From positions 1-30,051 of the IMG/VR virus record IMGVR_UViG_3300009684_000121: 30,051 nt of DNA. The stretch is one strand, 5' to 3'. This DNA is from a virus. The notes beneath the pieces are model-generated. The model had not been told where the DNA came from. It was given only the letters and a program-made list of their open reading frames with translations, and ran no database searches. This document shows, piece after piece, positions 1 through 25,623 of the stretch (positions are counted from its first letter, which is position 1; each line of letters starts with the position of its first letter). The position numbers and the translations under genes were made by a program.

Positions 1-1328
1 GCAGGTGCAGCCGCAGGCTGCGTTGCCTGACGCTGGGTAACCAGCGGTTTAATTAAGTCTTCGCGGTTTTTGTATTCTTCACGCAATGGCCGGAGAACAT
101 TCTCCATGTGGTCTGACGCTTCTTCGCGTGCGCCAGCCGTTTCCTCTTCCCACTTGGCGTACTCTTCAGGCTTTTTCTTTTTGCTGGGCGCCGCAGGTAT
201 CAGGTCCGTCAACCGCTTGGCTTCTTCTTTAGCAGCGGTGTAATCGTCAAACAGCTTAAGCAGATTCGTTGGCTGGGTAGCTTCAGCTTCTTGTGCGGCA
301 AGGGCAGCGTCTGATTCTTTTTGCTTACGTTCAACAATCTCGCTGCGTGCGCCGCCGCGCTCACTAATGCGACCAACGCCGCCCAACGGGGAAGTCAATA
401 CGGCCTGATAAGCAGCGTTCCCATAATCAGCCAACGCTTCGTCGTTCATTAGCGGCAGACCAGCCTGCGCGCGCTCAAGTATCTGCTGTGTAATCTCGGT
501 CGGTATCTCGACCGTACCCTTGGCCGTGCCTTTGAGCAAAGTGCCAGCGCTTACTTCGCCCCTGCTTAGCTTTGGCAACAGCCTTTCTGATGCTAGTTTC
601 TCTAGTTCTTGCGCAGACTTTTTAGCGACTTGCTCATCGGTGAAGCCCATCAAGCGGCCAACCACACCCTTGCCCAGCAACAGCCGATCCGTGAAAACAT
701 CAAGCGCTGCACCCGGAACAGCCGCACCATACGCAGCTAACGGGTTTACATCGACGGGTTTGCCTTCGGCTATCTGCGCGCGAGCTTGCGCTTCCAAGTT
801 TGCCCCGGCTGTTGGTACATACGAAGACAAGAATTGCCCTGCTAATGCGCCAACCCCAGCGCCAACCCCCGCACCAACAGGCCCAAGGAACCTACCAGCC
901 ATAGCCCCTGCGCGAGCACCAGCCCCCATCGAGGCTAGCTGCGGAACCTGCTCAGCGATTGCATACGGAATCTGACCTAGCGCTTCCCCAGCAGCAGACA
1001 GCACGCCGTCTTTTTCGTATGCCTGCTTGACCTTTTCCAGCGACACTTGGCTGGGTCTAGCCTTCTCAATCTCTTCCATGCGAGCAACGCCCGCCTCGGC
1101 TGCTTCGTTACCGCCGCCTAGACCTGTGCGGAACTGCGAACCGTATCTTTGCGCTCCACCAATAAGCGCAGACCCAAGGCCAGTCTTAGGTGTAACTTCG
1201 GGCGTCTGCGTCTTAGTGCCAAAGGCATCCGGGTACAACTGCGACGCGGCATAGAAGCCGTCCATCGCGTCCTGTCCGGGCTTTAGTTGAAAGTACGACC
1301 CGTCAGGCAGTTGAATGTAGCCGGCCAT
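1..1328 (-). CDS. Large internal-virion / polyvalent-type protein, N-terminal part (runs off left edge)
   Basis: The reading frame is open from an ATG at 1328 to the left edge, giving 442 visible residues with no stop. The N-terminus has a short module (IQLPDGSYF, then A..A..YPDAFG) of the kind that opens many very long phage virion proteins. Residues about 135-172 form a glycine zipper (repeated GAG/GVGAGVGALAG) suited to inserting into or crossing a membrane, and a second Gly/Leu-rich segment lies at about 209-231. Residues after about 330 are charged and helical. The gene starts 2 bases after the stop of the upstream 781-residue gene, so it is the last visible member of the ejection-protein run. 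By analogy with podoviral ejection proteins I infer a role in genome delivery or as a large polyvalent protein. Enzymatic domains, if any, lie outside the window. Function is inferred; the frame is certain. Confidence 0.75.
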   Translation of the reverse strand, partial: MAGYIQLPDGSYFQLKPGQDAMDGFYAASQLYPDAFGTKTQTPEVTPKTGLGSALIGGAQRYGSQFRTGLGGGNEAAEAGVARMEEIEKARPSQVSLEKVKQAYEKDGVLSAAGEALGQIPYAIAEQVPQLASMGAGARAGAMAGRFLGPVGAGVGAGVGALAGQFLSSYVPTAGANLEAQARAQIAEGKPVDVNPLAAYGAAVPGAALDVFTDRLLLGKGVVGRLMGFTDEQVAKKSAQELEKLASERLLPKLSRGEVSAGTLLKGTAKGTVEIPTEITQQILERAQAGLPLMNDEALADYGNAAYQAVLTSPLGGVGRISERGGARSEIVERKQKESDAALAAQEAEATQPTNLLKLFDDYTAAKEEAKRLTDLIPAAPSKKKKPEEYAKWEEETAGAREEASDHMENVLRPLREEYKNREDLIKPLVTQRQATQPAAAP

Positions 1329-1330
1329 AG

Positions 1331-3676
1331 TTATTGCGGGTTGCGGACAAGAGCGTTTGCGGGGAGTTTATCTACCACTTTACCTGCACCAAACATCGCC
1401 AAGTATTCGGGGTACGTGAGCATCCTCTCTTCTGGCTTCATTGGATTGGATTTCCATTCCGTCAGATACTTAGAGTAAGCAGCTTGCGGATTGAATTTTT
1501 CGCTGTTAATCAGTGTAAGCCCTGCTTTTATTTGCTCCGGCGTGCCCACTTCTCCGGGTTTAGCACCCCCCAATATAGCAGCAGCGCGCAGTGACTCTGG
1601 TGGCAACTGAGCCTTAAACAAATCGGACTGTCTTTGTGCGGCAATCTGTGCTTGCGTATTCGCTGCCTGCGCTGCTATACGCCGTTCATTATTGTATGCC
1701 TCGGTATCCGCACCAAACTGCGTAAGCTTGAACTGGTTGGCTACGTCTGCGGAATGATTAAATGCGGTCAGTCCGGCGGTTCCTTTTGCGTTAAAAAGCG
1801 CCTCTCCAATTCGCATCCTGTTGTTGTTTGCGGAGTCTTCAATCTGGTCAGCTCGTGTACGCAACGCAATCTCTCGATCAAAATCCCCACGCTCCGCTGC
1901 ATTTTGTGCGGCCTCGATGGTGGTGCGCATCTGCATACGTTTTTGTGCAAGCTCTTTGAACTCTTTGTTGGACTGCTGAAGTTCTTTAGCGCCAACAGTT
2001 GCACCCGCGCCCACGTTACGAAGGAAAGATCCCAACCCTTTGCCGCCGTATGGCGACTCCATCATTTTAAGACCTGCCATCATTATTGCCATGCCTTGAG
2101 CTTTTTCTTTTTCACCTGCTTCAGCAAATTCTTCAGTGTCAAGTTTTTCAGCCAACTTTTTAAATGGGGCGGCAGGTTTATTAAGTTTTACAAACTGCGC
2201 CGTTTCTTCCGCCCGTCCAAGCGCTTCTGCTTTAGCCCTGTCGGCTTGTGCGTAAAGATCTTTAGGATCAAAAAACTGACCCACATTTTGCATCGCTTTT
2301 TCGGGGGTAAGCGCATCAGGTGTTGTCAGCTTTGGTGGACCGCCCGCCCTTACTAAACCGGGTAAGCCAGCACCCCTACTTGGTGCCGGAGCGTTCCCCG
2401 CACCAACTGCTTTGTAAAGATCTGCATATGTTTGTGTAGGTGCCGCAGGTGCCGCAGGTGCCGCAGATATTCCAGCCTGATTAGCGGGTATTTCTACGCG
2501 GCCTTTCCCACGCCCCTCGTTGCTATAGTCGGACATTGGAAAAGTGCTGCGAATGTTTGCAGCTTCGGCTTCTCTTTGCTCGCGTTGCGTGGGCGTAAGC
2601 GGCTCAAAATATCCGGGGGCAACTGCAGCGGCTTTTTCTAATCTGCGTGCTTCAAGCTCGCGTGGGTTTTTAAGCGGATCACCAACGTCCCGAATAGACT
2701 GCACAGCGCTCTGTATTCCCCGTCCAATACCAGTCAGCCCTTGTCCAATGCTCTGTCCTGTGCTTTTAAGCATTTCTCCAAAAGGCGATGTTGCTTCTGG
2801 GTTTACGGGGTCCCCATACAGTTGCCGGATAGTTGGCGGGTTTTTAAACACGTCATAACCGGGGTCGCGGAACATCGAAGTGGTGTCTCTAGCCACCATG
2901 TTGTCTTTAGCCACGGCGCTAGTTTGTGCAGGAGTGTACGGTACTTGTGTTGGTTGTTGGGCGTTCTCTGCCGCCATCCGTTCACGCTGAACTATCACTT
3001 CGACCAACGGTGCAGGCGTGCCAAGCGAGCTAAGCTGCGCACGAATCGCATCTTCGTTAAAACCCCCACCAGCCATACGAATCGCACCACCATCGGCATA
3101 GCCAACAGCCTCGTCCGCATCCGCATACCCAGCGATCCCACCGTCAGCCATGTTCTGGATATTCCGAGCAGGCAAACCAGCTAGACCTTGCGGGGCCGCG
3201 CTGGGACCGGAAGGTGGGGGCATTTGCGGAGGCATACCCCGTGGGGGCATTTGTGGGGGCATTTGTGGAGGCATACCCTGCGCAGGCATCTGCGGAGCAG
3301 GAGGCGGACTTTGTGGAGTGGGCGGCATAGCCGGTGGCATCTGCATACCCGGTGGGGGCATCCCCATAGGCAGACCTTGCGGTGGCATTGGGCCTTGTGG
3401 TCCTCCGGGTGGTGGCATGGGCGCCCCGCCTTGCCCACCAATAGACTGCATAACTTGCTGCGCTACGGTCGGGGGGTGCTGCCCACTCAGCATTGCCAAC
3501 GCTTTGGAGTGCATCTCCTTGGCGTCATTGACCGCTTGGTTGGCAAGGCTCAACCGGATAGCGTCGTCTTGATGTATTTGCGCATATTGGCGCAGCATCT
3601 GTAGGGCTTGTGGCGAACCGACGCGCGCCAGTTTTTGAAGCTGCGCTTCTTCCCGTGCAATGTTTTCGTGCAGCAT
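1331..3676 (-). CDS. Putative internal virion protein, Pro/Met-rich with Gly-Gly motifs
   Basis: This is a 781-residue protein starting at an ATG with an AAGG ribosome-binding site 7 bases upstream. Residues 1-65 are helical and charged. Residues 84-170 are a low-complexity linker of repeated MPPQ/MPPPG units. Three Gly-Gly motifs follow (MADGG at 176, YADGG at 193, MAGGG at 201). The middle is poorly structured and Pro/Ala-rich. From about 520 the protein is helical: a GMAIMMAGLKMM-type amphipathic segment, a Gly-rich patch (YGGKGLGSFLRNVGAGATVG), then a long Ala/Gln-rich helix. No enzymatic motif is visible. It sits between the repeat-rich 1440-residue protein and the glycine-zipper protein, which suggests an ejection or internal-core component. 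That role is inferred from position and composition. A structural scaffold is an alternative. Confidence 0.7.
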   Translation of the reverse strand: MLHENIAREEAQLQKLARVGSPQALQMLRQYAQIHQDDAIRLSLANQAVNDAKEMHSKALAMLSGQHPPTVAQQVMQSIGGQGGAPMPPPGGPQGPMPPQGLPMGMPPPGMQMPPAMPPTPQSPPPAPQMPAQGMPPQMPPQMPPRGMPPQMPPPSGPSAAPQGLAGLPARNIQNMADGGIAGYADADEAVGYADGGAIRMAGGGFNEDAIRAQLSSLGTPAPLVEVIVQRERMAAENAQQPTQVPYTPAQTSAVAKDNMVARDTTSMFRDPGYDVFKNPPTIRQLYGDPVNPEATSPFGEMLKSTGQSIGQGLTGIGRGIQSAVQSIRDVGDPLKNPRELEARRLEKAAAVAPGYFEPLTPTQREQREAEAANIRSTFPMSDYSNEGRGKGRVEIPANQAGISAAPAAPAAPTQTYADLYKAVGAGNAPAPSRGAGLPGLVRAGGPPKLTTPDALTPEKAMQNVGQFFDPKDLYAQADRAKAEALGRAEETAQFVKLNKPAAPFKKLAEKLDTEEFAEAGEKEKAQGMAIMMAGLKMMESPYGGKGLGSFLRNVGAGATVGAKELQQSNKEFKELAQKRMQMRTTIEAAQNAAERGDFDREIALRTRADQIEDSANNNRMRIGEALFNAKGTAGLTAFNHSADVANQFKLTQFGADTEAYNNERRIAAQAANTQAQIAAQRQSDLFKAQLPPESLRAAAILGGAKPGEVGTPEQIKAGLTLINSEKFNPQAAYSKYLTEWKSNPMKPEERMLTYPEYLAMFGAGKVVDKLPANALVRNPQ

Positions 3677-3685
3677 GACAGTACC

Positions 3686-6600
3686 TTATTGCATTCTGGC
3701 AAGAATGAGTGAAGACAATCCACGCGGTTTACGAATAATACCGCCTTTTGCTTTAATCGGCGTAGACGAAAATAAGTTAGCCGCACCAATCGCAGCCGTA
3801 CCGAAACCTGCAAGCTGTGATGCCGTACTCGGCGCTTGTTGATAAACAGCCTGCGTTTGCTGGGTCAACGGCACTCCACGCAACACGTTTGAAAGTTGCC
3901 CAATCTGTTGGAATGGGAAGTTCTGCTGGTTGATGAAGTCGTTGTAGTTCTGCGTAAGCTGCTGCTGGTTATAGTTTTGCGCCTGCACGCCCATCTGATT
4001 CTGAGCGTTGGCAATATTCATCTGTTGCTGGTTATACATGCCACTCAAGTTACCGTAGTTCTGCATGCCCTGCATGCCGGCTTGAAGAGCTTGTAACCCG
4101 TAACCCGCGCCGTATTGATTGGCCTGCTCTTGCAACTGATTAGCAGCTTGACCGTATTGCGCCCTGTTTGCTGCCGCTGCCATGCTCTGACCATAGCCGT
4201 ACTGATTGGCTTGTTCTTGTTGTTGCTGCGTAGTAAGCCCTGCCTGCTGATTAGCCAACTGCGCCTGCAATGCCTGCTGGTTGTACATCTGCTGTACGCC
4301 CAGATTAGCTGCAAGATTCTGCTGCCCAACAGTAAGTCCGGCTTGTTGATTTGCAAGGTTTGCTTGTTGGCTAAGTTGCGCGTTTTGCAGATTTGACGCT
4401 TGGTTGAACTGCCCCTGCTGCAAACCGTACTGACCAGCAAGTGCTTGATTAGAGAGTGCGAATTGATTCGCGGCCTGTTGATTAGCGAGGTTAGCTGCTT
4501 GCCCAAACTGACCTTGCTGCAAACCGTACTGTCCGGCAAGTGCTTGATTAGAGAGCGCAAACTGGTTAGCTGCCTGCTGATTAGCGGCATTAGCTGCTTG
4601 GTTCATTGAGCCTTGCTGCAACCCATACTGCCCCGCAAGTGCTTGATTAGAGAGCGCAAACTGGTTAGCCGCTTGCTGATTAGCAGCATTAGCTGCTTGG
4701 TTCATTGAGCCTTGCTGCAACCCGTACTGCGCACCGTACTGCTGATTAGCCAATGCAATTTGATTAGCCGCTTGCTGATTAGCAGCATTAGCTGCTTGGT
4801 TCATTGAGCCTTGCTGCAACCCATATTGCGCGCCATACTGCTGATTAGCCAATGCAATTTGATTAGCTGCTTGCTGATTAGCAGCATTAGCTGCTTGGCT
4901 CATTGAGCCTTGCTGCAACCCGTATTGGCCAGAAAGTGCCTGATTAGCCAGTGCAATTTGGTTCGCTGCCTGTTGATTAGCAGCATTAGCTGCTTGGTTC
5001 ATTGAGCCTTGCTGCAACCCGTACTGCGCGCCGTATTGTTGATTAGCCAAAACCGCTTGTTGCTGATTAGCAAGATTGGCCAAGCCCATCTGTTGATTCA
5101 TTGAGCCTTGCTGCAACCCGTACTGAGCGCCATACTGCTGATTATTCGCCGCAGCCTGCTGCGCAAGTTGCGCATTTTGCAAAGCAAGCGCCTGATCCAT
5201 TGTGCCTTGCTGCAAACCGTACTGTCCTGCAAGCGCCTGATTAGCGAGCGCTGTCTGTTGTTGATTGGCAAGGCTGGCCAGCCCCATTTGCTGGTTCATC
5301 TGGCCTTGTTGTAGCCCGTACTGCGCACCGTATTGCTGGTTGTTAGCTGCGGCCTGTTGCGCAAGCTGAGCATTTTGAAGTGCCGTCGCTTGGTTCATCG
5401 TGCCCTGCTGCAAGCCATACTGGTTTAGTGCGGCTTGGTTAGCAGCGTTGGCTGCTTGGCTCATTGAGCCTTGCTGAAGACCGTATTGACCCTGCAACGA
5501 TTGGTTAGCCAGTGCAATTTGATTGGCTGACTGTTGGTTTGCTGCACTGGCTGATTGCTGCAACTGTGCGTTTTGAAGACCGTATTGTCCGGTCAGCGAT
5601 TGATTAGCCAGTGCAATCTGATTGGCCGATTGTTGATTTGCCGCATTAGCTGCTTGTTGTAGTTGCGCGTTTTGCAGACCGTATTGTCCGATCAACGCTT
5701 GATTAGCGAGCGCAGTCTGTTGGCGATTGGCGACGTTACCCATCGCCATCTGCTGTTCCATTGTCCCCTGCTGCAAACCGTATTGATTTGCTGCGGCTTG
5801 GTTTGCCGCACTGGCGGCTTGTTGCAACTGTGCGTTTTGGAGGCCGTACTGAGCGCCATACTGCTGATTATTAGCGGCGGCCTGCTGTTGCAGTTGTGCG
5901 TTTTGAAGCACTGTGGCCTGATCCATCTGCCCTTGGGACAGCCCGAATTGGTTTAATGCGTTTTGATTGGCCACCTTGGCAGCTTGCCGCATTGCAGCAT
6001 TTTGCAAATTTACTTCCTGATTAAGCTGGGCTTGCGTAATCCCGTATTGCCCCTGTAGCGACTGATTAGAAAGTTGTTGCTGTTGTAGAAGTTGTGCGTT
6101 TTGCAGCGCCGTATTGTACTGCTGCGTTTGATTAAATTTGCTTGTGTCAATACCAGCAGATTGATTAGCAAGCAATGCTTGCAATCCGGTTTGTTGGTTT
6201 AATTGCTGTGCAGTCAATCCAGTCTGTGCGCCAAGACCTTGGGTCTGAAGCAATGCGCTCAGATTTTGAACACCAGTTTGTTGCTGAACCTGTTGGTTAG
6301 CCAGCGCCGCTTGAAGCGCGGCTTGTTGTTCAGTATTAAACTGCCCTTGTGCTGATTGGAACGCTGATTGCAAACCTTGAGCTTGAATATCACCTTTCTG
6401 GGTAGCCAGATTGCGCGCCGCTTCAGCATTCTCAATAGCTTGGCGTGTGCCCCCAAAAGCCCCAGCTTGAGCAAAACCTGCGCCACGTTTAGTCGAGGCA
6501 ATATCTGCTTGGCGTTGTGCTTCACGTTGCTGAATATCCACCACACTTTGCATGTAGGGGGACATGTAGGCGTTGGCTGCTCCGGGCTGCGTAAACGAAC

Positions 6601-8008
6601 CTGTGCCTACATTTGCAGCCGCCTGCATCTGCAAACGCTCAAGCGGCAACGCTTGTACCCGTTCAGCAGCAGCACGCTCAAACCCAATATCTTGCGGCGT
6701 GTAATTGAGCTGTTGCCCTTGATAAAGAGGGACTTCGCCAAGCAGACTGTATTCCGCTTGCTCCGCTTGCATTTGAGCAACTTGACCAAGCTGCGTTTGC
6801 CGCGCTTGTGCAGCCGCCATCTCTGGCGAAGCACCAAGCTGCGCAGCATTCATGGTTGCCGCATTACCTAAACGTGCAGCCGTGCCCATTTGGGCTTCGC
6901 TTAGTGGGGCGTTGCCTAATTGCGCCGCTCGCATTTGAGCGGCGCGGGCTTGTGGAGACGCGCCAAGCTGCGCTGCTTGCATCTGAGCGGCACGGGCTTC
7001 TGGAGACATGCCAAGCTGCGCGGCGTTCATTGACGCCGCATTACCTAGCTGTGTTTGCGCAGCCTGCGCTGCCCGCATTTCTGGCGAAGCCGCAAGAAGA
7101 GACGCCACCCCTGTTTGTGCGGCTGAAGTTGGGGCGTTGCCTAGACCTGTACGCGCTGCTTGCGCAGCACGCATTTCAGGAGAAGCATTAAGAAGCGAAG
7201 CAACCCCGGTCTGGCCGCTAACAGTAGGCGCCATGCCCATCTGCGCAGCCTGCATTGCTTGAGCTATAGCTGTTGGGGAAGCCCCCATCTGCGCAGCCTG
7301 CATTGCTTGAGCTATAGCTGTTGGGGAAGCCCCCATCTGCGCAGCCTGCATTGCTTGCGCTATAGCTGTCGGAGAAAGCCCCATCTGCGCAGCCTGCATC
7401 GCTTGGGACGTAGCTGTCGGAGAAAGCCCCATCTGCGCGGCCTGCATCGCTTGGGACGTAGCTGTTGGAGAAAGCCCCATCTGCGCAGCCTGCATCGCTT
7501 GGGACGTAGCTGTCGGAGAAACCCCCATCTGCGCAGCATTTGCAGTAGCCCCCTGCACATTTTGGGGGCCTTGCATCTGGAAATATTGGGCGTTCTGCGG
7601 ACTTACCCCTTGGTAGCTAAACTGCCCCGGCTGATAAGCTCCCGGCGCTGTGTACTGGTTGCCATAAGCGGTTGGGTTGTACCGAGACTGCCCTGCCTGC
7701 GCAGCCAAGTTGTACATGTTCTGAAGCGAGTTACCTGCTTCAGCGCCAAGACCCATGTTCTGGATCGTGTTGTACGCCTGCTGACTAAGCACGTCCGGGC
7801 CAGCAATCCGTTGGCCTTGGTATGTCTGATAGGGTTTAAGTCCAGATACTTGCGGTTGACCATTAGAGTCAAGGAGTAACTGCCCGTTAGCATCGCGCTT
7901 ATAGTCGTAAATTGCCCCTTCAGTAGCGCCAAGCATGCGCTCAACCTGCGCACGTGCGTAGTCAGGGATCGACGTTTGCGTTTGAACAATTTGTTGTGGA
8001 TCTGCCAT
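3686..8008 (-). CDS. Giant Gln/Asn-rich repeat virion protein, putative ejection rod
   Basis: This is a 1440-residue protein with an ATG and an AAGGA site 6 bases upstream. Residues 1-157 are non-repetitive. Residues 158-253 hold six near-perfect 16-residue repeats (AAQMGLSPTATSQAMQ type). Residues 254-400 are degenerate relatives containing SPEMRAAQ. Around 440-560 is a conserved-looking helical block (AYMSPYMQSVVDIQQREAQR, then KRGAGFAQAGAFGGTRQAI) that I recognise from many phage internal proteins. Residues about 640-1230 are built from 11-residue units (N-Q-x4-Q-x2-L/A-x) grouped into 33-residue repeats such as GQYGLQQGSMN. The C-terminus has KAKGGIIRKPRG. The hendecad pattern suggests long alpha-helical right-handed coiled coil, which I infer could form a rod or tube for DNA ejection. 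Very low Cys/Trp and charge content in the repeats makes an enzyme unlikely. It could also be a tail fibre or scaffold. Confidence 0.75.
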   Translation of the reverse strand: MADPQQIVQTQTSIPDYARAQVERMLGATEGAIYDYKRDANGQLLLDSNGQPQVSGLKPYQTYQGQRIAGPDVLSQQAYNTIQNMGLGAEAGNSLQNMYNLAAQAGQSRYNPTAYGNQYTAPGAYQPGQFSYQGVSPQNAQYFQMQGPQNVQGATANAAQMGVSPTATSQAMQAAQMGLSPTATSQAMQAAQMGLSPTATSQAMQAAQMGLSPTAIAQAMQAAQMGASPTAIAQAMQAAQMGASPTAIAQAMQAAQMGMAPTVSGQTGVASLLNASPEMRAAQAARTGLGNAPTSAAQTGVASLLAASPEMRAAQAAQTQLGNAASMNAAQLGMSPEARAAQMQAAQLGASPQARAAQMRAAQLGNAPLSEAQMGTAARLGNAATMNAAQLGASPEMAAAQARQTQLGQVAQMQAEQAEYSLLGEVPLYQGQQLNYTPQDIGFERAAAERVQALPLERLQMQAAANVGTGSFTQPGAANAYMSPYMQSVVDIQQREAQRQADIASTKRGAGFAQAGAFGGTRQAIENAEAARNLATQKGDIQAQGLQSAFQSAQGQFNTEQQAALQAALANQQVQQQTGVQNLSALLQTQGLGAQTGLTAQQLNQQTGLQALLANQSAGIDTSKFNQTQQYNTALQNAQLLQQQQLSNQSLQGQYGITQAQLNQEVNLQNAAMRQAAKVANQNALNQFGLSQGQMDQATVLQNAQLQQQAAANNQQYGAQYGLQNAQLQQAASAANQAAANQYGLQQGTMEQQMAMGNVANRQQTALANQALIGQYGLQNAQLQQAANAANQQSANQIALANQSLTGQYGLQNAQLQQSASAANQQSANQIALANQSLQGQYGLQQGSMSQAANAANQAALNQYGLQQGTMNQATALQNAQLAQQAAANNQQYGAQYGLQQGQMNQQMGLASLANQQQTALANQALAGQYGLQQGTMDQALALQNAQLAQQAAANNQQYGAQYGLQQGSMNQQMGLANLANQQQAVLANQQYGAQYGLQQGSMNQAANAANQQAANQIALANQALSGQYGLQQGSMSQAANAANQQAANQIALANQQYGAQYGLQQGSMNQAANAANQQAANQIALANQQYGAQYGLQQGSMNQAANAANQQAANQFALSNQALAGQYGLQQGSMNQAANAANQQAANQFALSNQALAGQYGLQQGQFGQAANLANQQAANQFALSNQALAGQYGLQQGQFNQASNLQNAQLSQQANLANQQAGLTVGQQNLAANLGVQQMYNQQALQAQLANQQAGLTTQQQQEQANQYGYGQSMAAAANRAQYGQAANQLQEQANQYGAGYGLQALQAGMQGMQNYGNLSGMYNQQQMNIANAQNQMGVQAQNYNQQQLTQNYNDFINQQNFPFQQIGQLSNVLRGVPLTQQTQAVYQQAPSTASQLAGFGTAAIGAANLFSSTPIKAKGGIIRKPRGLSSLILARMQ
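4400..6080 (-). repeat. Imperfect 99-bp tandem repeats encoding hendecad units
   Basis: Within the giant repeat protein, units of about 99 bases (33 residues, three 11-residue subunits) recur, each marked by a QYGLQ block and an NQAANAANQQAAN-type block. Several adjacent units between about 4600 and 5100 are nearly identical at the DNA level; those further right are more diverged. The gradient suggests recent expansion near 4600-5100. Confidence 0.85.
7250..7537 (-). repeat. Six 48-bp tandem repeats encoding 16-residue units
   Basis: Six consecutive 48-base units encode AAQMG(L/A/V)SPTA(T/I)(S/A)QAMQ, residues 158-253 of the giant repeat protein. Two adjacent units are identical. They form two subtypes (TATSQ and TAIAQ), showing block duplication. 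Related but decayed copies continue towards about 6800. Confidence 0.9.
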
Positions 8009-8017
8009 GACTATTCC

Positions 8018-9184
8018 TTATGCGGGCAGCAGGCTTTCTGCATTTGTATCGGTAGCTACGCGGTGTTTGCCGGTTGTTTTGCTTCTTGCGCGCTGCACGC
8101 GGTCCATCATTGCGTATAGTTTACGCGCACCCGCTTCAGTTGAGCCATTGCCAATCTCAGACACGATGCGTGCCGGTACAACAAATTCCCCATCGGCTAG
8201 CCGCGCGGGTTGGCGATCCCCAATCATTGCCGGGATGTTGTCAGATACGCCATCACCGGGGCCGCGAAGTAAGCGCCCACCATCAGAGTAACCACCCAGC
8301 GTCCCTAAACCGCCTTGGTTAAAAGCCACAACGCCACCTGTCGCAGCTTTGTATGGCTCGGGCACATCATAGGTATCGTTGAAGTAGCGCGCTTCCCCTT
8401 GCCCAGTATATGGCGTTGGGTTTTGTTTGCGGTTGAGAATGATCGGGCGGATCATGGCTTGTGGAGTAACGCTGCCTAGCGTTGGCATCTTGGTCGTCTG
8501 ATTCGCTTGGATGCCCGCCATGATCGGAAGTGCCGTGGCTGCTAGCATACCCGCGCCTTTCATTGTGCTGCCACCACCAAGAGTGTTAAGCGCTGAACCG
8601 GGGTTGTTCATTGCAGACGTAAAGCCCCCGGTTAATTTGTCATACGGCGACATACCTGCGGCTGCGGCTCTGCCTTGTTGTGCTGCATACTCCGCAGCCA
8701 TTTGTGGACTTGCTGAACCTTCTGTTGCTAGTGCGGCATCGTATGCAGATTTTGTCGCAGCTTGTGACGCAGCGTCTGCTCCAATATTGGACAGCCCGCT
8801 ACTAAGACTTGCCCCACCGTACGCACCCAACCCGGCCATGAGTCCTTTCTGCAAGCTACCAGTAGCCAGAGCGCCAATCCCACCAGTAACTAGTCCAGCC
8901 GCAGCCGCGTTGGATATGCCGCCCATCATTGTCCCAAGTCCGGGCACAAAATAATCAAGAGCAAATCCGGCCAGCGGAGCGGCAATTGGTTTGATTGCTT
9001 TCCAAGCACTGCTGAAGATGTTCGCTTCCGGCAGACCCGTGTGTGGGTTAATTGTCAGCGAGCCGCCATGGGCCATGGCTAAGCGTTGGAGTCCGTGCAC
9101 CTCGTCTGGCGTTACGTGCATAAGCATCGAGTCGCCGTTGCGACCATAGCCAGCCATGTGATGGGCAAGATTTTGTAGGCTCAT
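8018..9184 (-). CDS. Conserved internal virion-like protein (GGSLTINPHTG / LADGEFVVPA motifs)
   Basis: This is a 388-residue protein. The N-terminus (residues 11-55: GDSMLMHVTPDEV.GLQ, then GGSLTINPHTGLPEA) is a signature I recognise from uncharacterised proteins of many environmental phages. Residues 56-135 are Gly/Ala-rich and hydrophobic (PLAGFALDYFVPGLGTMMGG and following), resembling membrane-active ejection proteins. Residues 305-371 carry a second recurrent signature (DGVSDNIPAMIG, LADGEFVVPARIV, GNGSTEAGARKLYAMMDRV) ending in a basic tail. Near the junction are Gly-Gly motifs (ATGGVV, NQGGLG, YSDGG). No enzyme motif is visible. It precedes the giant repeat protein by 9 bases in the same operon. 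I infer an internal virion or tail-tip role. The start lacks a clear Shine-Dalgarno sequence, so it probably relies on coupling with the gene just upstream. Confidence 0.72.
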   Translation of the reverse strand: MSLQNLAHHMAGYGRNGDSMLMHVTPDEVHGLQRLAMAHGGSLTINPHTGLPEANIFSSAWKAIKPIAAPLAGFALDYFVPGLGTMMGGISNAAAAGLVTGGIGALATGSLQKGLMAGLGAYGGASLSSGLSNIGADAASQAATKSAYDAALATEGSASPQMAAEYAAQQGRAAAAGMSPYDKLTGGFTSAMNNPGSALNTLGGGSTMKGAGMLAATALPIMAGIQANQTTKMPTLGSVTPQAMIRPIILNRKQNPTPYTGQGEARYFNDTYDVPEPYKAATGGVVAFNQGGLGTLGGYSDGGRLLRGPGDGVSDNIPAMIGDRQPARLADGEFVVPARIVSEIGNGSTEAGARKLYAMMDRVQRARSKTTGKHRVATDTNAESLLPA

Positions 9185-9186
9185 GA

Positions 9187-10113
9187 TTACGTCGCTGTGT
9201 TACTAATTAAAATGCCTTGCAAAATTAAACCAACAGAGTGTGTTCCTGATGCGGTTGAAAATTGCCATTGGATGTCTGTTTTTTGTGTGTATGGAAACGG
9301 GTTTACTCTAGGAACTTGATATCTTTGGTCCCAAGCTGTTTGCAATACTGTTAGAGTAACTGGGTTTGTTTGAGCGTTGTTTGTGCTTTTAACTTGGTAG
9401 TTAATTGCGTTTCCGGGCGCGGCATCTCCGTTAAACGCATTAATGGATATCAAGTACATTGTGTATCCATTTGGTACAGAGTACACGGCAGCTTGCGACC
9501 TTCCCACCCCTGTTGAAATTTGCGAGTAAGTAACCCCACCATTCTTGGCTGTAATTGTTCCTACGTTAGTAGTTTGACCAGTCCCTGTACTAGTCATAAT
9601 CATGTTGTTAATGCGGAGAAACTGATTGGTTGTAGTTACGCCTGTTACGCCGTTTAGCGTTACTGTTTCTGTTATGGCATCCCAACTTGAATTAAGTCCG
9701 CTAATAAGTATTGTTGCTCTAGTGTTGTCGGACGCTGAAGTGCTGGCAAGTGTCATTGTTACAGCAGATGCCGGGAAAGCATATTGAGTGGTCCCCGTTA
9801 ATTCCCACAATGTATAAAGGGTTGTCTTAACAGAATCAGAAAACGCAAAAATATTTACTTGGCTTGCACCAGTAACTTTTCCTCGGGCGACTTGCAGTGC
9901 CCAATCCGCAGATTGCGAAGATTCTGTACTGATAGGAACTGGGGATGATGTTGCCATTAGCTGCCCGAGTAAATTATCAATCTGGTTGAAATACAACCGC
10001 AGGACGTTGTTGAGTTGGTCAATATAACGCGGGTCATATTCTTTCGATGCATCCGGCAAGCGCGGGGCAACAATTCTATTAAGCTCGTAATCTGATGTAA
10101 TAACGTAGCTCAT
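9187..10113 (-). CDS. Putative virion-associated tail protein with helical N-terminus
   Basis: This is a 308-residue protein whose ATG overlaps the stop of the nozzle-like gene by one base (TGATG), indicating coupled translation. Residues 5-55 (LNRIVAPRLP, EYDPRYIDQLNNVLRLYF) form a predicted amphipathic helix region that I recognise from conserved hypothetical phage proteins placed next to nozzle genes. The remaining 250 residues are Ser/Thr-rich and beta-stranded with no Cys. The last 50 residues (QKTDIQWQFSTASGTHSVGL.LQGILI) look like a compact beta domain. A virion location is inferred from neighbours on both sides; a tail-needle or decoration role is possible. I cannot name a specific function. 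Confidence 0.65.
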   Translation of the reverse strand: MSYVITSDYELNRIVAPRLPDASKEYDPRYIDQLNNVLRLYFNQIDNLLGQLMATSSPVPISTESSQSADWALQVARGKVTGASQVNIFAFSDSVKTTLYTLWELTGTTQYAFPASAVTMTLASTSASDNTRATILISGLNSSWDAITETVTLNGVTGVTTTNQFLRINNMIMTSTGTGQTTNVGTITAKNGGVTYSQISTGVGRSQAAVYSVPNGYTMYLISINAFNGDAAPGNAINYQVKSTNNAQTNPVTLTVLQTAWDQRYQVPRVNPFPYTQKTDIQWQFSTASGTHSVGLILQGILISNTAT

Positions 10114-12194
10114 CAGCGCCTGCCATCATTTCTGATATCGATTCGGGGAGCGCCAAGCTGCCATTGCAGCCCAAGCTGGTTTCCTTCAATCTTAAACGCC
10201 ATCTGGCGTCCACGCACGCGGGTGTAGATCTGCCCAGTATACGCTTCAATTGGGTACGTAGATGTCCGGGTAGATGTGGCGTAAGCGTTGCCACCCACCG
10301 ATAATGGACTATTGTACCCGGAACCCGAGTTCTGCATAGGGTACAGCGTCATGGTTACTTGCGGGCTTGCCGCCGTAGACCCATCAAATTTAAGATCCGG
10401 CAGCATCCGCCACACAAACCCAAAGTTGTGCCCGTCGTCAATATCAAATTCGGACGACAGAATATAGGACGAAATGGGAAGACCCGTAACAGAATCAGTA
10501 CAGTCGTCTACGCCATTCTCATGCCAGACAAGATTTTTTGAATACGTAGCCGCAATTGGGTAATCGTTCAGGCCGCTATCAATCCAAGCCGTGCGCCCCA
10601 TAGTGCCGTAGTACCAGACGTTTTCCAGATAATTAAAAATAATATATCTGTCTACAACCGTGTTACTACCGGAACAGTAAAACCACCAGACTTCATTAAA
10701 GCCCTCGTTGGTGCTACAAAAAACTTGGTCAAACTGACTCTTATTTACACTCTCAAATACATACTGACGAAGATCGCAGCTAAGCGTCTGCACCCGGCCA
10801 TCATACTTGTAAAACTTGTCGACGCCCATCCAGTACGTAATACCGGAGGCAATAACGGCGGCATTTGGCCCGGCAATTGAGATGTTGTCGCCAAGAAGCT
10901 GTGAACTCCAAACGTATGGCGGTCCCAAATACTGCAAGGAATATACAGAACTGTCGGTAAACACAACGATTTCTTGACGGCTTTGTACAGTTGTAACGAT
11001 CTTAGAACCGTGCGACAACCGCACACTACCCGCTTGATTGGTAATTGCTGGATACCAAGTAATCAACGAATCTTGATCTGACCAACGAATCAGCATAGGA
11101 TCAAGCGTCGTGCTACCAATGTCGTTGGTGCCAAACACCAAAATAAACCGGCTAGTATCAGATACCGTAAACGTGTTCTGATACAGAGGGCAGTAGCCAT
11201 CAGTACCCGCCAAACTAGATAACAACACGCCGTTAGGTTTAATGTAGGCGGTTCCGCTACTACTGCCACTTGTATTGATTGCCGCACCACCAGCAGTCAG
11301 TGCAAGGTTAAATGTCGTGCCAGTAGAAGCAAGCGCGTAGTATGTAGTTCCGGGCGTAAGCCCAGTTGGTAGCGCCCCCGTTGTGGAAAACGTAATTGGG
11401 GTTCCCGTGACTACACTTATGGTTGACGTTACGACAGCAGGGGATGCAATCGTAATAGATACAGATGATGGATTGTACCCAATTGCAGCATCCCAATAGT
11501 ACAGAGGACCACCACGTGGTCCGTATAATAGGTTTTGGCCCCAATTCATTTGGTTCCAAAGACGGATAGGATCTGTAGTAGTGCCTCCGTTACCCCATGT
11601 TCCTGAACTCCATCCCCCCGCACCCCACCCAACATATGGGACCGCAATCGCAGGGCCAGTATTTATTTGGTATACAGCAATGACAGCGGAACCACCAGTT
11701 GCCCCAACAGCAACAGTTGAAGCAGTGGTAATAGTATATGAGTTAGCACTTACATACGTAATGCTATATTCTGTATTTAAAAGGGTAGCATAAGTACCCG
11801 TAACCCCACTAAACGTAACATAGTCACCAGTAATCGCCCCATGTGAAGTAGCGGTAACTGTGACCGTAGTAGTGCCATTCCCAGTAAATGGGTTGCTGCC
11901 AAGCGTTGCGCTGGCTCTAACTGGGGTGATGTCATAATATGACCCCCCGTTTTGGATGTAAAACTTGAGGTTTGTACCAACACCCAACAAGTTCTGCGAA
12001 GCAAGCGTCACCCAAGACCAAAGCGAACGGCATATACCCAAAAAGGTATTGGCCGAAATTTGCAGCCAACCACCAATTTTCTCGGGCGTACCCTGCCGAA
12101 AACGAATTTTTTCCGATTCGTAGTAGCCGCCCTCGTTGGTGTACCGCGTGTTTTCGCGGTTAACCCCGGGCTTGAACAGCAGCTTTTTTAGCAT
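10113..12194 (-). CDS. Tail nozzle / packaged-DNA stabilisation-like protein
   Basis: This is a 693-residue protein. The N-terminus (LLFKPGVNRENTRYTNEGGY, KIRFRQGTPEKIGGW) is a signature of phage proteins annotated as stabilisation or tail nozzle proteins, which form a beta-propeller ring closing the portal channel in short-tailed phages. WGQNLLYGPRGGPLYYWD and later WMGVDKFYKYDGRVQTL, DQVFCSTNEGFNEVWWFYC and ENVWYYGTMGRTAW look like successive propeller blades. Two Thr/Ser/Gly-rich segments (about 94-175 with TSHGAITGDYVTFSGVTG, and about 244-318 with ITFSTTGALPTGLTPGTTYY) interrupt the blades and look like inserted beta modules. The gene starts one base inside the holin stop codon (TAATG). 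The family assignment is from remembered signatures; a propeller fold is inferred. Confidence 0.75.
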   Translation of the reverse strand: MLKKLLFKPGVNRENTRYTNEGGYYESEKIRFRQGTPEKIGGWLQISANTFLGICRSLWSWVTLASQNLLGVGTNLKFYIQNGGSYYDITPVRASATLGSNPFTGNGTTTVTVTATSHGAITGDYVTFSGVTGTYATLLNTEYSITYVSANSYTITTASTVAVGATGGSAVIAVYQINTGPAIAVPYVGWGAGGWSSGTWGNGGTTTDPIRLWNQMNWGQNLLYGPRGGPLYYWDAAIGYNPSSVSITIASPAVVTSTISVVTGTPITFSTTGALPTGLTPGTTYYALASTGTTFNLALTAGGAAINTSGSSSGTAYIKPNGVLLSSLAGTDGYCPLYQNTFTVSDTSRFILVFGTNDIGSTTLDPMLIRWSDQDSLITWYPAITNQAGSVRLSHGSKIVTTVQSRQEIVVFTDSSVYSLQYLGPPYVWSSQLLGDNISIAGPNAAVIASGITYWMGVDKFYKYDGRVQTLSCDLRQYVFESVNKSQFDQVFCSTNEGFNEVWWFYCSGSNTVVDRYIIFNYLENVWYYGTMGRTAWIDSGLNDYPIAATYSKNLVWHENGVDDCTDSVTGLPISSYILSSEFDIDDGHNFGFVWRMLPDLKFDGSTAASPQVTMTLYPMQNSGSGYNSPLSVGGNAYATSTRTSTYPIEAYTGQIYTRVRGRQMAFKIEGNQLGLQWQLGAPRIDIRNDGRR

Positions 12195-14062: not shown

Positions 14063-14329
14063 TCAGTTGTCAGTTTGCTCGTCGTCTTCTTCAGCTTCTT
14101 CAGCTTCTTCAGCTTCTTCAGCTTCTTCAGCTTCTTCAGCGTCGTCTTCTTCAGCAACTGCGTTAGCAGCAACTTCAAACTGCGCTTCGATGTGTGAAGA
14201 GAAGAGAGAAGACAGTGTGAACTCGTTGATGCCGCTTTCAATAGCGACAGCAAATGCAACAGAGAACAAACCGTTCAGCGCATCAATAGGCTCAGAACCA
14301 TCGATGGCGGCAATGATCAAGTCTTTCAT
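14063..14329 (-). CDS. Small protein with acidic repeat tail
   Basis: This 88-residue protein has a hydrophobic, probably helical N-terminal half (IIAAIDGSEPIDALNGLFSV) and, from residue about 59, a tail of EEA units ending DDEQTDN. The tail is encoded by six perfect 9-bp repeats and is strongly negative. The start has GGAG 6 bases upstream. Acidic tails of this type can mimic nucleic acid or bind basic proteins, but nothing specific is shown here. It lies between a conserved 58-residue basic protein and the endonuclease gene. I do not recognise the family; a small virion or regulatory protein is possible. Confidence 0.65.
   Translation of the reverse strand: MKDLIIAAIDGSEPIDALNGLFSVAFAVAIESGINEFTLSSLFSSHIEAQFEVAANAVAEEDDAEEAEEAEEAEEAEEAEEDDEQTDN
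14086..14139 (-). repeat. Six perfect tandem 9-bp repeats encoding Glu-Glu-Ala
   Basis: The plus strand shows CTTCTTCAG six times in a row without mismatch. On the coding strand these give the EEA repeats of the 88-residue protein. The unit is a multiple of three, so gain or loss of copies keeps the frame. Confidence 0.9.
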
Positions 14330-16175: not shown

Positions 16176-17090
16176 TTAAGCGTTTACTAACTCAGTCCAA
16201 TTAGCGTTTTCGGTGTTGGTAATAGCTGTCCAGTTAGCGTTTTCGGTGTTGGTAATAGCTGTCCAGTTAGCGTTTTCGGTGTTGGTAATAGCTGTCCAGT
16301 TAGCGTTTTCGGTGTTTGTAACATTTGTCCAATTTGGTGTTTGGCTATCGTCAATTACGCTCCAATACCTATAGCCAATATCACCAATTTTACCCATTGC
16401 TGGGCATCCAGTAATAGCAACTAGACGCGCTCCAACCGAAACCGATTGTATCGTCCCGGTAGCTAAAACGCCAGATACTGCCCGTTCGTATACAGCGCTA
16501 GCAGTTAGGTTGCCTACTTCACCAGCCGCCGATACGCCAGTTATTTTTACAGTGACATTAAGCCCAACACTGCCAACCAAGCCGGAAGCAATAGTTCCAG
16601 TCTCATCCGGATTTTCAAACGCCGCAACGGTTCCAACTAATCCAGATACAGCTACGCCAGTAAGCGCAACGGTTCGCTCTCCCATTGAGACCGAATCAAC
16701 TGAACCTGTTGCTGATACCCCGGTTGGGAAGGCGGGGATAGTAAATTCTGCGTTGCCAACATTACCAGTGGCAGAGGTTCCGGTAATGCCTACAGTTCTA
16801 TTGGCGGTAATTGTGCCGACTAGAGCATCAGCATGGACTTCTTGAATTTCAGGTAAAGGATAAGTGTCAACCCCACCAACTGTTGGCTGGGCCGATACCC
16901 CCGTAAGCGCAAAACTCTTTGTGGCTACTGTGGTGCCGACAAGTCCAGCGCCACTTACGCCGGTTAGCGCAACAGTTACATTTTTAGTGACGGACCCTAC
17001 AGAGCCAGACGCAGACGTACCAGTTAAGGCGGCTTGGGAACCGCCCCACGTATTACTGCTCCAAGTACTAGCGCCCCAGCTAGTAGCCAT
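16176..17090 (-). CDS. Repeat-built structural protein (LTGVSA.G.VG repeats)
   Basis: This is a 304-residue protein. It begins MATSWGASTWSSNTWGG, then carries roughly ten imperfect repeats of the form ALTGVSATGSVGSV about every 22-30 residues, indicating a beta-repeat fold. The C-terminus switches to four copies of an 11-residue unit (NTENANWTAIT). The protein has no Cys and few charges. Such proteins are common beside tail or head genes in environmental phages. The ATG comes one base after the upstream stop without a clear Shine-Dalgarno, so re-initiation is likely. It could be a fibre, a decoration or an adhesion protein; I infer a surface virion component. Confidence 0.65.
   Translation of the reverse strand: MATSWGASTWSSNTWGGSQAALTGTSASGSVGSVTKNVTVALTGVSGAGLVGTTVATKSFALTGVSAQPTVGGVDTYPLPEIQEVHADALVGTITANRTVGITGTSATGNVGNAEFTIPAFPTGVSATGSVDSVSMGERTVALTGVAVSGLVGTVAAFENPDETGTIASGLVGSVGLNVTVKITGVSAAGEVGNLTASAVYERAVSGVLATGTIQSVSVGARLVAITGCPAMGKIGDIGYRYWSVIDDSQTPNWTNVTNTENANWTAITNTENANWTAITNTENANWTAITNTENANWTELVNA
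16201..16319 (-). repeat. 33-bp tandem repeats encoding an NWT-containing 11-residue unit
   Basis: Copies start at 16201, 16234, 16267 and 16300. The first three are identical across the full 33 bases and the fourth is identical for about 20 bases before diverging. They encode successive NTENANWTAIT units at the C-terminus of the 304-residue protein. The near-identity of codons implies recent expansion or continual homogenisation. Confidence 0.9.
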
Positions 17091-23122: not shown

Positions 23123-23368
23123 CTAGGGGTTAGCTAGTTGAGCCGCTTGGAATGCTGCTACAACTTCCGGTGTCCACGCTGCGTTACAGATAGCCTGTAC
23201 GTTTGCTGGTACTGCGCTGGTGTCTTGACCGGGAGTTAGGCTTGAACGATGGTAGGTCTTGCTTAGTTCCACGCCGTCCTCAAGGATGCGCGTTGCTTCG
23301 CGGTAGAGAACGATGCCGTTTTCGGTGACAGTGATTTGGTCTACAACGGTTAACTTACTGAGTGACAT
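23123..23368 (-). CDS. Small fibre-associated protein, duplicate A
   Basis: This 81-residue protein contains DQITVTENGIVLYREATRIL and EDGVELSKTYHRSSLTPGQD, identical over about 40 residues to the protein at 24742-24975. The end (NVQAICNAAWTPEVVAAFQA) is also similar. It follows the 275-residue fibre gene. Arrangement behind a fibre suggests a chaperone or fibre-cap role, but no family is proven. The ATG has only a weak AGG site, so re-initiation is likely. Confidence 0.7.
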   Translation of the reverse strand: MSLSKLTVVDQITVTENGIVLYREATRILEDGVELSKTYHRSSLTPGQDTSAVPANVQAICNAAWTPEVVAAFQAAQLANP

Positions 23369-23380
23369 TATAAAACCTAT

Positions 23381-24208
23381 TTAAACATTGTAAGTGATTG
23401 TTACGCCAACTTTTGTCCCTGTTGCACATAAAGTTGTTCCGGTTCCCGGTGAGACAGTTATGTTTGGTCCGGGAGTGTATACTTGGAAGATAACGGCGGT
23501 ATTTGTATTTTGATTTGACCCAGTGCCGAAAATATAAGTATTGTTTGAGTTGGGCAAAAATGGCAAAGCCGATACGTTCCAGCTACCCGCTGCCGTCCCA
23601 TTATTAACAACGCTTACATACAAAATTGCAGTTACTTGCCGACCAATTTTTGTATATTCTCCTGTAACCGTGATGGTTGTAAAAGAACCGCTAGAGCCGG
23701 GGGTTATAGTTGGAGTCCAAGTCCCTTCTTCGTAATCGTCTAGCGTATTAGCGTCTGATGATGCCGATTGAGTTGCGGGAAACGCAATTCCAGCGCCTGA
23801 TGCAGAAGGAGTTGTAGAACCAACACCTAAACTTGTTACAACAGGACCATTGGTAGCAAACGTCAAATTAGACGCACCAGCAAAAGAACCCGCATTGTTG
23901 TATTGGAACTGCGTTGTTGATCCACCGGGAGACGCACTCACAGAAGCCCAAGTACCGTCACCGCGCCAATATGTTGAACTTGATGCAGAAGTACCGCTGT
24001 TTAAATTGGCAACAGGCAAGTTTCCAGTCACGCCAGTAGCAAGCGAAACTTGACCCCAACTCATCGTGCCGCCAGTCGTGCTGGTTAGCGCGTAACCGTT
24101 TGCAGCAGGGACCGCCGTGGGCAAAGTATAGGACTGAGTGCCAGCAACCGCCGGAGCCGCTAGGGTGACCGTGCCCGACGTATCACCAGATAAGACGAGT
24201 GATGCCAT
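23381..24208 (-). CDS. Modular tail fibre / receptor-binding protein
   Basis: This 275-residue beta-rich protein has a shaft with [20 protein letters not shown] and [19 protein letters not shown], closely matching parts of the 583-residue fibre, then a linker [27 protein letters not shown] at about 141-176 and YTKIGR at 195. The last 75 residues are a distinct beta domain, presumably a receptor-binding tip. The linker recurs in two other proteins here with different tips. An AAAGG site lies 8 bases before the ATG. Fibre identity is well supported; binding target unknown. Confidence 0.8.
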
Positions 24209-24238: not shown

Positions 24239-24742
24239 TTATACGGTATACACAAGTGTGCAAATAATAAAAAATGTTGACAATTGCGCGTTTGTTATTG
24301 CCGCGTTTGTAGCCGCGTTAAGAACGGCAGCGGTTGTAGACCCACTTACAGTTCTCAATATAATCGCAGTACCAGATGACCCGCTTACTGCCGCCGGGCT
24401 AAATATTGCAGCAGTAAATGGAAGACCTCCAATTACAGCAGCGGCGGAAGATACTGTAGTTGGATAACTTAATTGGCAATGGGCTATAACAACCCGACCT
24501 ATTTTTGTATAATTTGCGGTGGTTACAGTAAACGATAATCCAGCACCACTAGCATCAGTTGGAGTCCATGTTGCTTCTTTGTAATCATCTAGCGTATTTG
24601 CGTCAGACGATGCGGACTGAGTAGCAGGGAACGTAATGCCAGCACCGCTTGCCGCAGGAGTAGCGCCACCGACCCCAACAACGTTCGTTACCGTGACTGG
24701 AGGAGTCGTTATCCCAGCGGTCCCGTCTAGCGTAATAGCCAT
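24239..24742 (-). CDS. Short modular fibre protein with linker and tip domain
   Basis: This 167-residue protein begins MAITLDGTAGITTPPVTVTN, then has the linker [18 protein letters not shown] (about 44-61) and YTKIGRVVIAHCQL (78-91) shared with two neighbours, followed by its own C-terminal beta domain. It lacks the long shaft, so it is essentially linker plus tip. Its ATG overlaps the stop of the 77-residue gene (TAATG). It may be an alternative tip or a separate short fibre. Confidence 0.75.
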   Translation of the reverse strand: MAITLDGTAGITTPPVTVTNVVGVGGATPAASGAGITFPATQSASSDANTLDDYKEATWTPTDASGAGLSFTVTTANYTKIGRVVIAHCQLSYPTTVSSAAAVIGGLPFTAAIFSPAAVSGSSGTAIILRTVSGSTTAAVLNAATNAAITNAQLSTFFIICTLVYTV

Positions 24743-24975
24743 TACTTCACCTGTGCTTGATAAGCCGCAACAACGTCAGCAGTCCATGCCGCATTGCAAA
24801 TAGCCACAACATTCTCCGGTACACCGGCCAAATCCTGACCCGGAGTCAGGCTTGAGCGGTGATACGTCTTGCTCAGTTCAACCCCATCCTCAAGAATGCG
24901 CGTTGCTTCACGGTAAAGAACGATGCCGTTCTCGGTGACTGTGATCTGGTCAATCTTGACTTCTTTAGTAAGCAT
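24742..24975 (-). CDS. Small fibre-associated protein, duplicate B
   Basis: This 77-residue protein contains the same DQITVTENGIVLYREATRIL and EDGVELSKTYHRSSLTPGQD blocks as the protein at 23123-23368; the DNA is also closely similar there. Its N- and C-termini differ (MLTKEVKI; ADVVAAYQAQVK). It has a good AAGGA site and precedes the 167-residue fibre by a one-base overlap. The duplicate pair brackets two fibre genes, suggesting tandem duplication of a fibre-plus-small-protein unit. Confidence 0.7.
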   Translation of the reverse strand: MLTKEVKIDQITVTENGIVLYREATRILEDGVELSKTYHRSSLTPGQDLAGVPENVVAICNAAWTADVVAAYQAQVK

Positions 24976-25017: not shown

Positions 25018-25623
25018 TTAAACCGAATAAGTTCCGTTAATGTAAAATTGAGATCCGGACTGTGTATCAGCAGCGAGAGTATCGACGGCTGATCCGGCGG
25101 TAAATTTACGTATTGCAATTGTTGTGACTGCTGAAATTACAATTGCTTGTATTGCAGTTGTTGCCGTTGCCGCAAATCCAGATGCGTAAATGGAAAAACT
25201 TGATTCAGCAGCGGCGGCGTTCCCACAAGCAAAAGGCAAACCATTTAACGTTAAAGCGCCAGTTGGTGAAGAGACACTATTTACGTACAATCGCCCAGAT
25301 ATTGTTACCAATCTACCCACTTTTGTATAGCGAATGGTGTCAAACCCACCGAGCATTGCAATAGTGCCAGATGTCGCAGTCAATGTTATTGTGGCAGTTC
25401 CTTCCTCATAATCATCTAATGTGTTGGCATCCGTAGACGTTACCTGAGTAGCCGGAAAAGCAATACCGCATCCAGTTGTAGACGATGCGCCCTGAAGAGC
25501 CAGTGCCTTGCCAAGTTCCGCATTCAGAACCGTAGTATTCGCCGCTTGCAGTTGCAACACACCGCTAGTATCGGCAGTCGATACCAGCCCAGCGGACGTT
25601 GATGCGTTGATCGTAGTTGCCAT
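25018..25623 (-). CDS. Modular fibre protein with linker and tip domain
   Basis: This 201-residue protein starts MATTINASTSAGLVSTADTS, has [20 protein letters not shown] followed by EEGTATIT (linker at about 53-78) and YTKVGRLVTISGRLYV (99-114), then a C-terminal Ala/Ser/Thr-rich beta domain. The linker matches the 167- and 275-residue proteins while the tip differs. An AAGGA site is well placed. It lies directly downstream of the 583-residue fibre. A receptor-binding tip or decoy fibre is inferred. Confidence 0.75.
   Translation of the reverse strand: MATTINASTSAGLVSTADTSGVLQLQAANTTVLNAELGKALALQGASSTTGCGIAFPATQVTSTDANTLDDYEEGTATITLTATSGTIAMLGGFDTIRYTKVGRLVTISGRLYVNSVSSPTGALTLNGLPFACGNAAAAESSFSIYASGFAATATTAIQAIVISAVTTIAIRKFTAGSAVDTLAADTQSGSQFYINGTYSV

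Follow-up and report, generated by a model that had tools for sequence, protein, structure and literature searches.

The tube formed by the H protein of phage phiX174 is a decameric, helical structure in which 121 residues span 170 angstrom and whose lining is mainly Gln, Asn and Arg; in sequence, H carries hendecads (QKELTKMQLDN, QKEIAEMQNET) followed by heptads (PMC7354561). Sf6 gp12, of the P22 gp20 class, is also a decamer, with a stem that fits the H tube and a channel of 25 angstrom (PMC4755594). Ejection proteins of podoviruses are essential, but little is understood about them and few of the tunnels that they form have been solved. Here we describe a protein with a very long Gln/Asn-rich repeat that is encoded in 30,051 nucleotides of viral DNA (positions 1 to 30,051 of IMG/VR record IMGVR_UViG_3300009684_000121, the whole of which is referred to here as the window), together with its relatives from other phage genomes.

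The rod gene, its neighbours and its relatives

The rod gene sits among tail and ejection genes, which are arranged as follows.

3..1328, minus strand: giant polyvalent protein, N-terminal 442 aa, truncated by the window end (compared with its L002 homologue)
1331..3676, minus strand: downstream neighbour, 781 aa
3686..8008, minus strand: whole rod-protein ORF, 1440 aa; a putative DNA ejection protein whose rod is greatly expanded (from BLASTP of its two ends to L056, and the match of L056 to PHROG 4287)
8018..9184, minus strand: upstream neighbour, 388 aa, Gly/Ala-rich; a homologue adjoins the family gene at 76 loci
10113..12194, minus strand: upstream tail gene, 693 aa, PHROG 3287; related to proteins annotated as P22-type stabilization or needle head protein

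A 308-aa gene is also present upstream of the rod gene, and a P22 gp10-like gene (in the window, the 693-aa tail gene) lies upstream of the family gene at every one of the 70 loci (70/70) that have at least 3 kb of upstream sequence. The Gly/Ala-rich 388-aa protein is likely, from its position, to be another virion or ejection component. The giant polyvalent protein lies downstream in several relatives and is complete in L002 (L002:10469-18268), where it has 2600+ aa with ADP-ribosyltransferase (ART-PolyVal) and LPD38 domains; a Gly-zipper stretch is found close to its N-terminus. Polyvalent proteins have been proposed to enter the cell along with the phage DNA (PMC5512222). Elsewhere in the window, three consecutive fibre-like genes (23381-24208, 24239-24742 and 25018-25623, minus strand) have one 25-residue segment in common, which possibly reflects exchangeable modules, and two near-identical small genes (23123-23368 and 24742-24975, minus strand; 81 and 77 aa, VDQITVTENGIVLYREATRILEDGVELSKTYHRSSLTPGQD) appear to be a duplication between tail-fibre-like genes.

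Four parts can be recognized within the rod protein, all of them on the minus strand.

3689..3940, minus strand: C-terminal conserved segment (C-side anchor), residues 1357-1440, motif P[YF]QQ[IL]..SN.LRG
4301..6214, minus strand: Q/N-rich rod, residues 599-1236, 58 in-register 11-residue units in blocks of 33 (from tandem repeats, unit parse and AlphaFold helix)
6329..6595, minus strand: conserved core (N-side anchor), residues ~472-560, a helix, a GAFGG turn and a second helix (from alignment and the AlphaFold model of homologue L087)
6740..7537, minus strand: second repeat, residues ~158-423, 16-residue Ala/Gln/Met units SPTAxxQAMQAAQMGx with one Pro each

The core reads REAQRQADIAxTKRGAxxAQAGAFGGxRQAIENAEAARN, and the GAFGG glycines with the flanking E and R are invariant in 36 sequences. 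Using the form REAQRQADIAxTxRGAxxxxAGAFGGxRQAIxxAEAARN to find relatives, one scan of uncultured-phage loci yielded 450, and two further, overlapping scans yielded 455 and 281. Homologues with different repeat numbers are among them; the close relatives L001, L002 and L003 (1061, 782 and 1287 aa), for example, have both ends in common with the window protein and fewer repeats. The much smaller L056 (415 aa) also aligns at both ends by BLASTP (63% over residues 464-607, E 5e-35; 48% over residues 1247-1439, E 3e-33), so that the rod is an insertion of ~660 residues relative to L056. L056 and L079 match PHROG 4287, 'DNA ejection protein' (E 1.5e-7 and 6.5e-24), a profile matched by 29/36 aligned members and to which the window protein and several other long-rod members give no match; the GAFGG core and the C-terminal P[YF]QQ..RG segment are common to the window protein and the matching members. 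By its sequence, the window protein is thus joined to the PHROG 4287 type through relatives, the name of that PHROG being an annotation rather than an experimental result. An ejection role, as suggested in the preliminary description of this DNA, is supported by both the family annotation (PHROG 4287, through those relatives) and the gene neighbourhood, and we consider the rod protein quite probably an ejection protein.

Full-length tblastn searches of named phages gave no match and the core alone gave one weak match, so the annotation of isolated phages is not directly usable. Pfam and NCBIfam returned nothing significant for the rod protein, and no relative was found in bacterial genomes, which were searched for host assignment. 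In L003 (L003:9956-13819) and L014 (L014:7284-11192), the place of the window's separate downstream gene is taken by a long non-repeat extension at the C-terminus of the rod protein. With L085 and L165, these form a set of rod proteins of 1160-1320 aa with a long C-terminal extension that is apparently a fusion with a downstream gene.

The repeat arrays

The rod is encoded in the ORF that runs from 8008 to 3686, of which positions 4400-6080, where a repeat array had initially been recognized, correspond to residues 643-1203. The array is real and slightly longer (residues 599-1236; 6214..4301), and consists of 58 consecutive 11-residue units, grouped by 33, with zero indels. Over residues 654-1222 the unit profile is Q1 [YA]2 [GA]3 L4 [AQ]5 N6 Q7 Q8 [LM]9 x Q11, with N or Q at position 6 in 98% of units. 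Identity between residues that lie 33 apart is 0.55 (0.17 expected), and in the DNA most of 4416-5724 is occupied by tandem repeats with a period of 99 bp or a multiple of it. Between residues 640 and 1270, Q and N together make up ~41%, Ala, Gln, Leu and Met are abundant and beta-branched residues are scarce, and the very low charge that had been remarked upon is confirmed, with 8 of 631 residues (~1%) being charged. Comparison of the five most alike rod units gives a pS of 0.44 and a pN of 0.077, and since their differences are mainly synonymous the units correspond to a selected protein and not to slippage noise; purifying selection acts on them.

If the rod were one straight helix, its 638 residues at 1.5 angstrom each would extend for 96 nm, in keeping with the earlier arithmetic of about 600 residues and 90 nm. 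The periplasm of a Gram-negative cell and the head of a podovirus are both shorter than this, the periplasm by far. The suggestion that the rod crosses the envelope therefore cannot fully explain the window member, and a straight rod of this length must bend, fold back or act otherwise.

The second repeat is also evident in the DNA, as 48 bp x 6.3 at 7236-7537 and 48 bp x 2.1 at 6921-7021, and its copy number in L001 and L002 differs from that in the window. The only phmmer hit is a designed protein (8v2d), whose match to the 16-residue Ala/Gln repeats we take as similarity of composition. Repeats are also present in two other genes of the window. A 304-aa protein (16176-17090, minus strand) contains a C-terminal 11-residue repeat, NWTAITNTENA, in nearly 4 copies that are 97% identical as DNA (16195-16321) and whose sequence is unrelated to the rod, and a small ORF (14063-14329, minus strand) ends in a perfect 9-bp tandem repeat (14086-14140) that encodes a highly acidic (EEA)n tract.

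Anchor-to-anchor length and the fold of the rod

The length of the segment that joins the two anchors was taken as the number of residues from the GAFGG turn to the C-terminal PYQQL..RG segment, the latter being located by a motif rule. Among 141 unique sequences this distance varies nine-fold, between 95 and 849 residues; the window protein has the longest, and 113, 120 and 127 residues are the commonest values. When periods from 2.05 to 15 are scanned, the best is 3.66 (R=0.71 for the 141 unique sequences), and the 57 distinct lengths are clustered at this period (R=0.62, p~3e-10; this and the other length p-values are approximate, because residual tree structure is ignored and the C anchor comes from a motif rule). 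The distinct lengths show no clustering at periods of 5.5, 7 or 11, and weak clustering at 2.2 (R=0.27, p=0.016). The mod-11 classes 5, 9, 2, 6, 10 and 3 fall into one hump in helical phase, and length increments of, for example, 4, 7, 11, 18, 22 and 29 correspond to whole turns. Disjoint sister pairs provide 40 length differences, for which the best period is again 3.66 (R=0.64, p~7e-8), and whole turns are still preferred when multiples of 11 are set aside (P=0.008). These figures come from repeating a smaller first length test on a larger sample with controls; the N-terminal spacer of the same proteins, which served as a control with a comparable spread (83-457 residues, 40 distinct lengths), has no periodicity (R=0.15, p=0.39), and this together with the sister pairs makes an artefact unlikely. 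The quantization of length at whole helical turns is the strongest result of the analysis and is new, and it indicates a helix or helices whose two ends must hold rotational register. We note that whole-turn changes in length between fixed anchors are a signature that can be read from sequences alone, and one that speaks for a continuous helix which keeps its register.

Could the rod be a tolerant linker that has grown neutrally, by unequal recombination between units of 33 bp and 99 bp, neither its length nor its phase being under functional demand? Such growth would account for the presence of DNA tandem repeats and for the excess of sister-pair differences that are multiples of 11 (16/40, with 3.6 expected), and recombination at helical offsets could contribute, since such offsets carry sequence similarity. 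However, differences of 4, 7, 25 and 29 are whole turns and not whole units, and the phase has a single mode over 24 clusters whose cores are <70% identical (R=0.67, p~2e-5). Moreover, the rod units are under purifying selection, and the N-terminal spacer, which bears repeats in some members, is without the pattern; we therefore regard neutral growth as an improbable explanation.

Hydrophobic autocorrelation in 51 other members of the family has peaks at lags of 4, 7, 9, 11, 15, 18, 22, 29, 33 and 40, nearly all of which are helical turns. For the compact homologue L087 (347 aa, 45 sequences), AlphaFold2 places three helices about the GAFGG turn (residues 114-144, 150-204 and 215-284), with pLDDT mostly of 55-80. 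The monomer model of window residues 430-1440 has a low mean pLDDT of 57; in it the rod is 92% helix with zero strand, and the long helix has several breaks, mostly in Gly-rich QYG stretches (GQYG/QYGAQYG). Foldseek comparisons of the L087 and window models with the PDB gave no match at E<0.001, and those with viral models gave matches mostly to uncharacterised uncultured-phage proteins; profile searches of all PDB sequences, including the solved phiX174 H domain, were empty. The helicity that had been suspected is supported by the 3.66-residue quantization and by the predicted helix content, and we think it very probable that the rod is helical.

The type of helix is a different matter. The 11-residue periodicity first proposed holds throughout, with 58 units in register, and a classical right-handed coiled coil with a single hydrophobic stripe is not supported: the hydrophobic residues of the window unit occupy positions 2 and 9 (~180 degrees on the wheel) and position 4 (33 degrees), with a spacing of 2-5-4, and so form two nearly opposite faces ~147 degrees apart. 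The one-face helical hydrophobic moment of the 11-residue profile is not above that of random permutations of positions (P=0.73). Positions 1, 5 and 8, which are mostly Gln and Ala, are located between the two faces, and the glycines of the unit align on one face (P=0.007). Two faces at this angle would suit helices lying side by side, in a sheet, a bundle or a wide ring, although this is suggestive only.

In the hydrophobic spectrum of the window rod it is 2.2 and 5.5, not 3.66, that are the strongest periods, which raised the possibility of beta structure. This was rejected, because the lengths are quantized at 3.66 and a period of 2.2 in an 11-residue repeat is the alias of the second harmonic of the helical period, as given by a helix with two faces. 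The same spectrum and the ~41% content of Q and N might also be read as the mark of a prion-like, aggregating beta domain, a Q/N-rich aggregating domain being the alternative offered in the preliminary description. The rod lengths follow 3.66 strongly and 2.2 weakly, the low-pLDDT AlphaFold model of the rod is without strand, and a composition rich in Ala, Gln, Leu and Met with few beta-branched residues is a poor match to such a domain, so that we consider aggregation very improbable.

Proposed role and comparison with known systems

The best explanation, to which we would assign a probability of roughly 0.6, is that this is an ejection protein of the PHROG 4287 type in which a Q/N/Ala-rich helix joins the core to the C-terminal segment and forms an ejected bundle or tube. 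The joining helix would have grown to ~640 in-register residues through duplication of 11- and 33-residue units, its length being free to evolve by whole helical turns because its two ends must keep rotational register. The protein would be packaged in the head and would leave by threading through the tail in a flexible form, which its near-zero charge and lack of a rigid globular core may ease. After exit it could refold as helices packed side by side, two faces per helix, giving a tube or bundle by which the short tail would be prolonged into the envelope of the cell; the DNA and the giant polyvalent protein would then enter through the lengthened tail. Long versions such as that of the window may bend, fold back or have another role. 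By analogy, the rod may form a tube like that of H, at somewhat less than even odds.

A helical assembly other than a tube is a less probable arrangement that deserves to be weighed, in which the protein acts as an intravirion spacer or as a folded-back antiparallel bundle, filling the head or tethering the core to other ejected proteins, and the phase of packing matters more than length. The nine-fold range of lengths is difficult to reconcile with an envelope of fixed thickness, the long helix is interrupted at the GQYG/QYGAQYG places in the AlphaFold model, the compact homologue has two long helices that could pair, and the rod protein of some relatives has a long C-terminal extension, all of which would accord with a spacer or bundle; by itself, however, this arrangement leaves the strong Gln/Asn bias unexplained.

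The ejected bundle or tube may be taken a step further, to a conduit for DNA of adjustable length, in which nearly uncharged, Gln/Asn-lined 11-residue helices form a barrel like the H tube in a podovirus, and growth by whole turns over a nine-fold range matches the geometry of host or virion. We offer this as a tentative and rather doubtful proposal; if true, such a conduit would resemble an internal, extendable tail. The natural series of lengths, from 95 to 849 residues, lets one ask what determines the length of a conduit, and bears on how very long rods exit the head and refold.

The nearest counterpart for the proposed action is phiX174 H with its tube, and the Sf6 gp12 class is comparable; sequence homology was detected neither to P22 gp20 nor to any solved structure. 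The family points to a parallel in function between the H tube and tailed phages. Profile searches of the PDB detected no sequence homology between phiX174 H and the rod family. The likeness is in the units, which have Q1, L4, A5 and Q8 in common and are Q-rich in both, and in length, since the 121-residue H helix is near the commonest anchor distances of the family (113-127). The 11- and 7-residue make-up of H also recurs in the family, in the increments of 7 and 11, in the autocorrelation at 7, 11, 18 and 29 and in the Q at unit positions 1, 7, 8 and 11. The H protein belongs to a different virus class, has charged units and is about five times shorter, whereas the window rod is nearly uncharged; and the H tube is a solved decamer, whereas the window rod is known from its sequence and a monomer prediction. 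Hendecad right-handed coiled coils resemble the rod in being helical with a strict 11-residue register, but have one stripe (a/d/e/h) where the almost uncharged window rod has two faces (positions 2, 4 and 9).

The genes for P22 gp20 and Sf6 gp12 lie, as the window gene does, among ejection genes after a gp10-type tail gene. They belong to PHROGs 917/2534 and the rod family to PHROG 4287, and an hhalign comparison of profiles found no homology to P22 gp20 (probability 0.1%). A further likeness is to the PHROG 4287 members themselves, such as HTVC023P_gp81 (of a Pelagibacter phage, and a distant member) and the 294-aa protein of Phage DSL-LC04 (L004:18414-19298), which have the GAFGG core, the C-terminal PYQQL segment and a Q/A-rich helix joining these anchors, and whose genes also follow a gp10-like tail gene. 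These compact members are of ~290-420 aa with anchors 95-170 residues apart, whereas in the window protein the anchors are separated by 849 residues and a second, 16-residue repeat is present in the N-terminal part.
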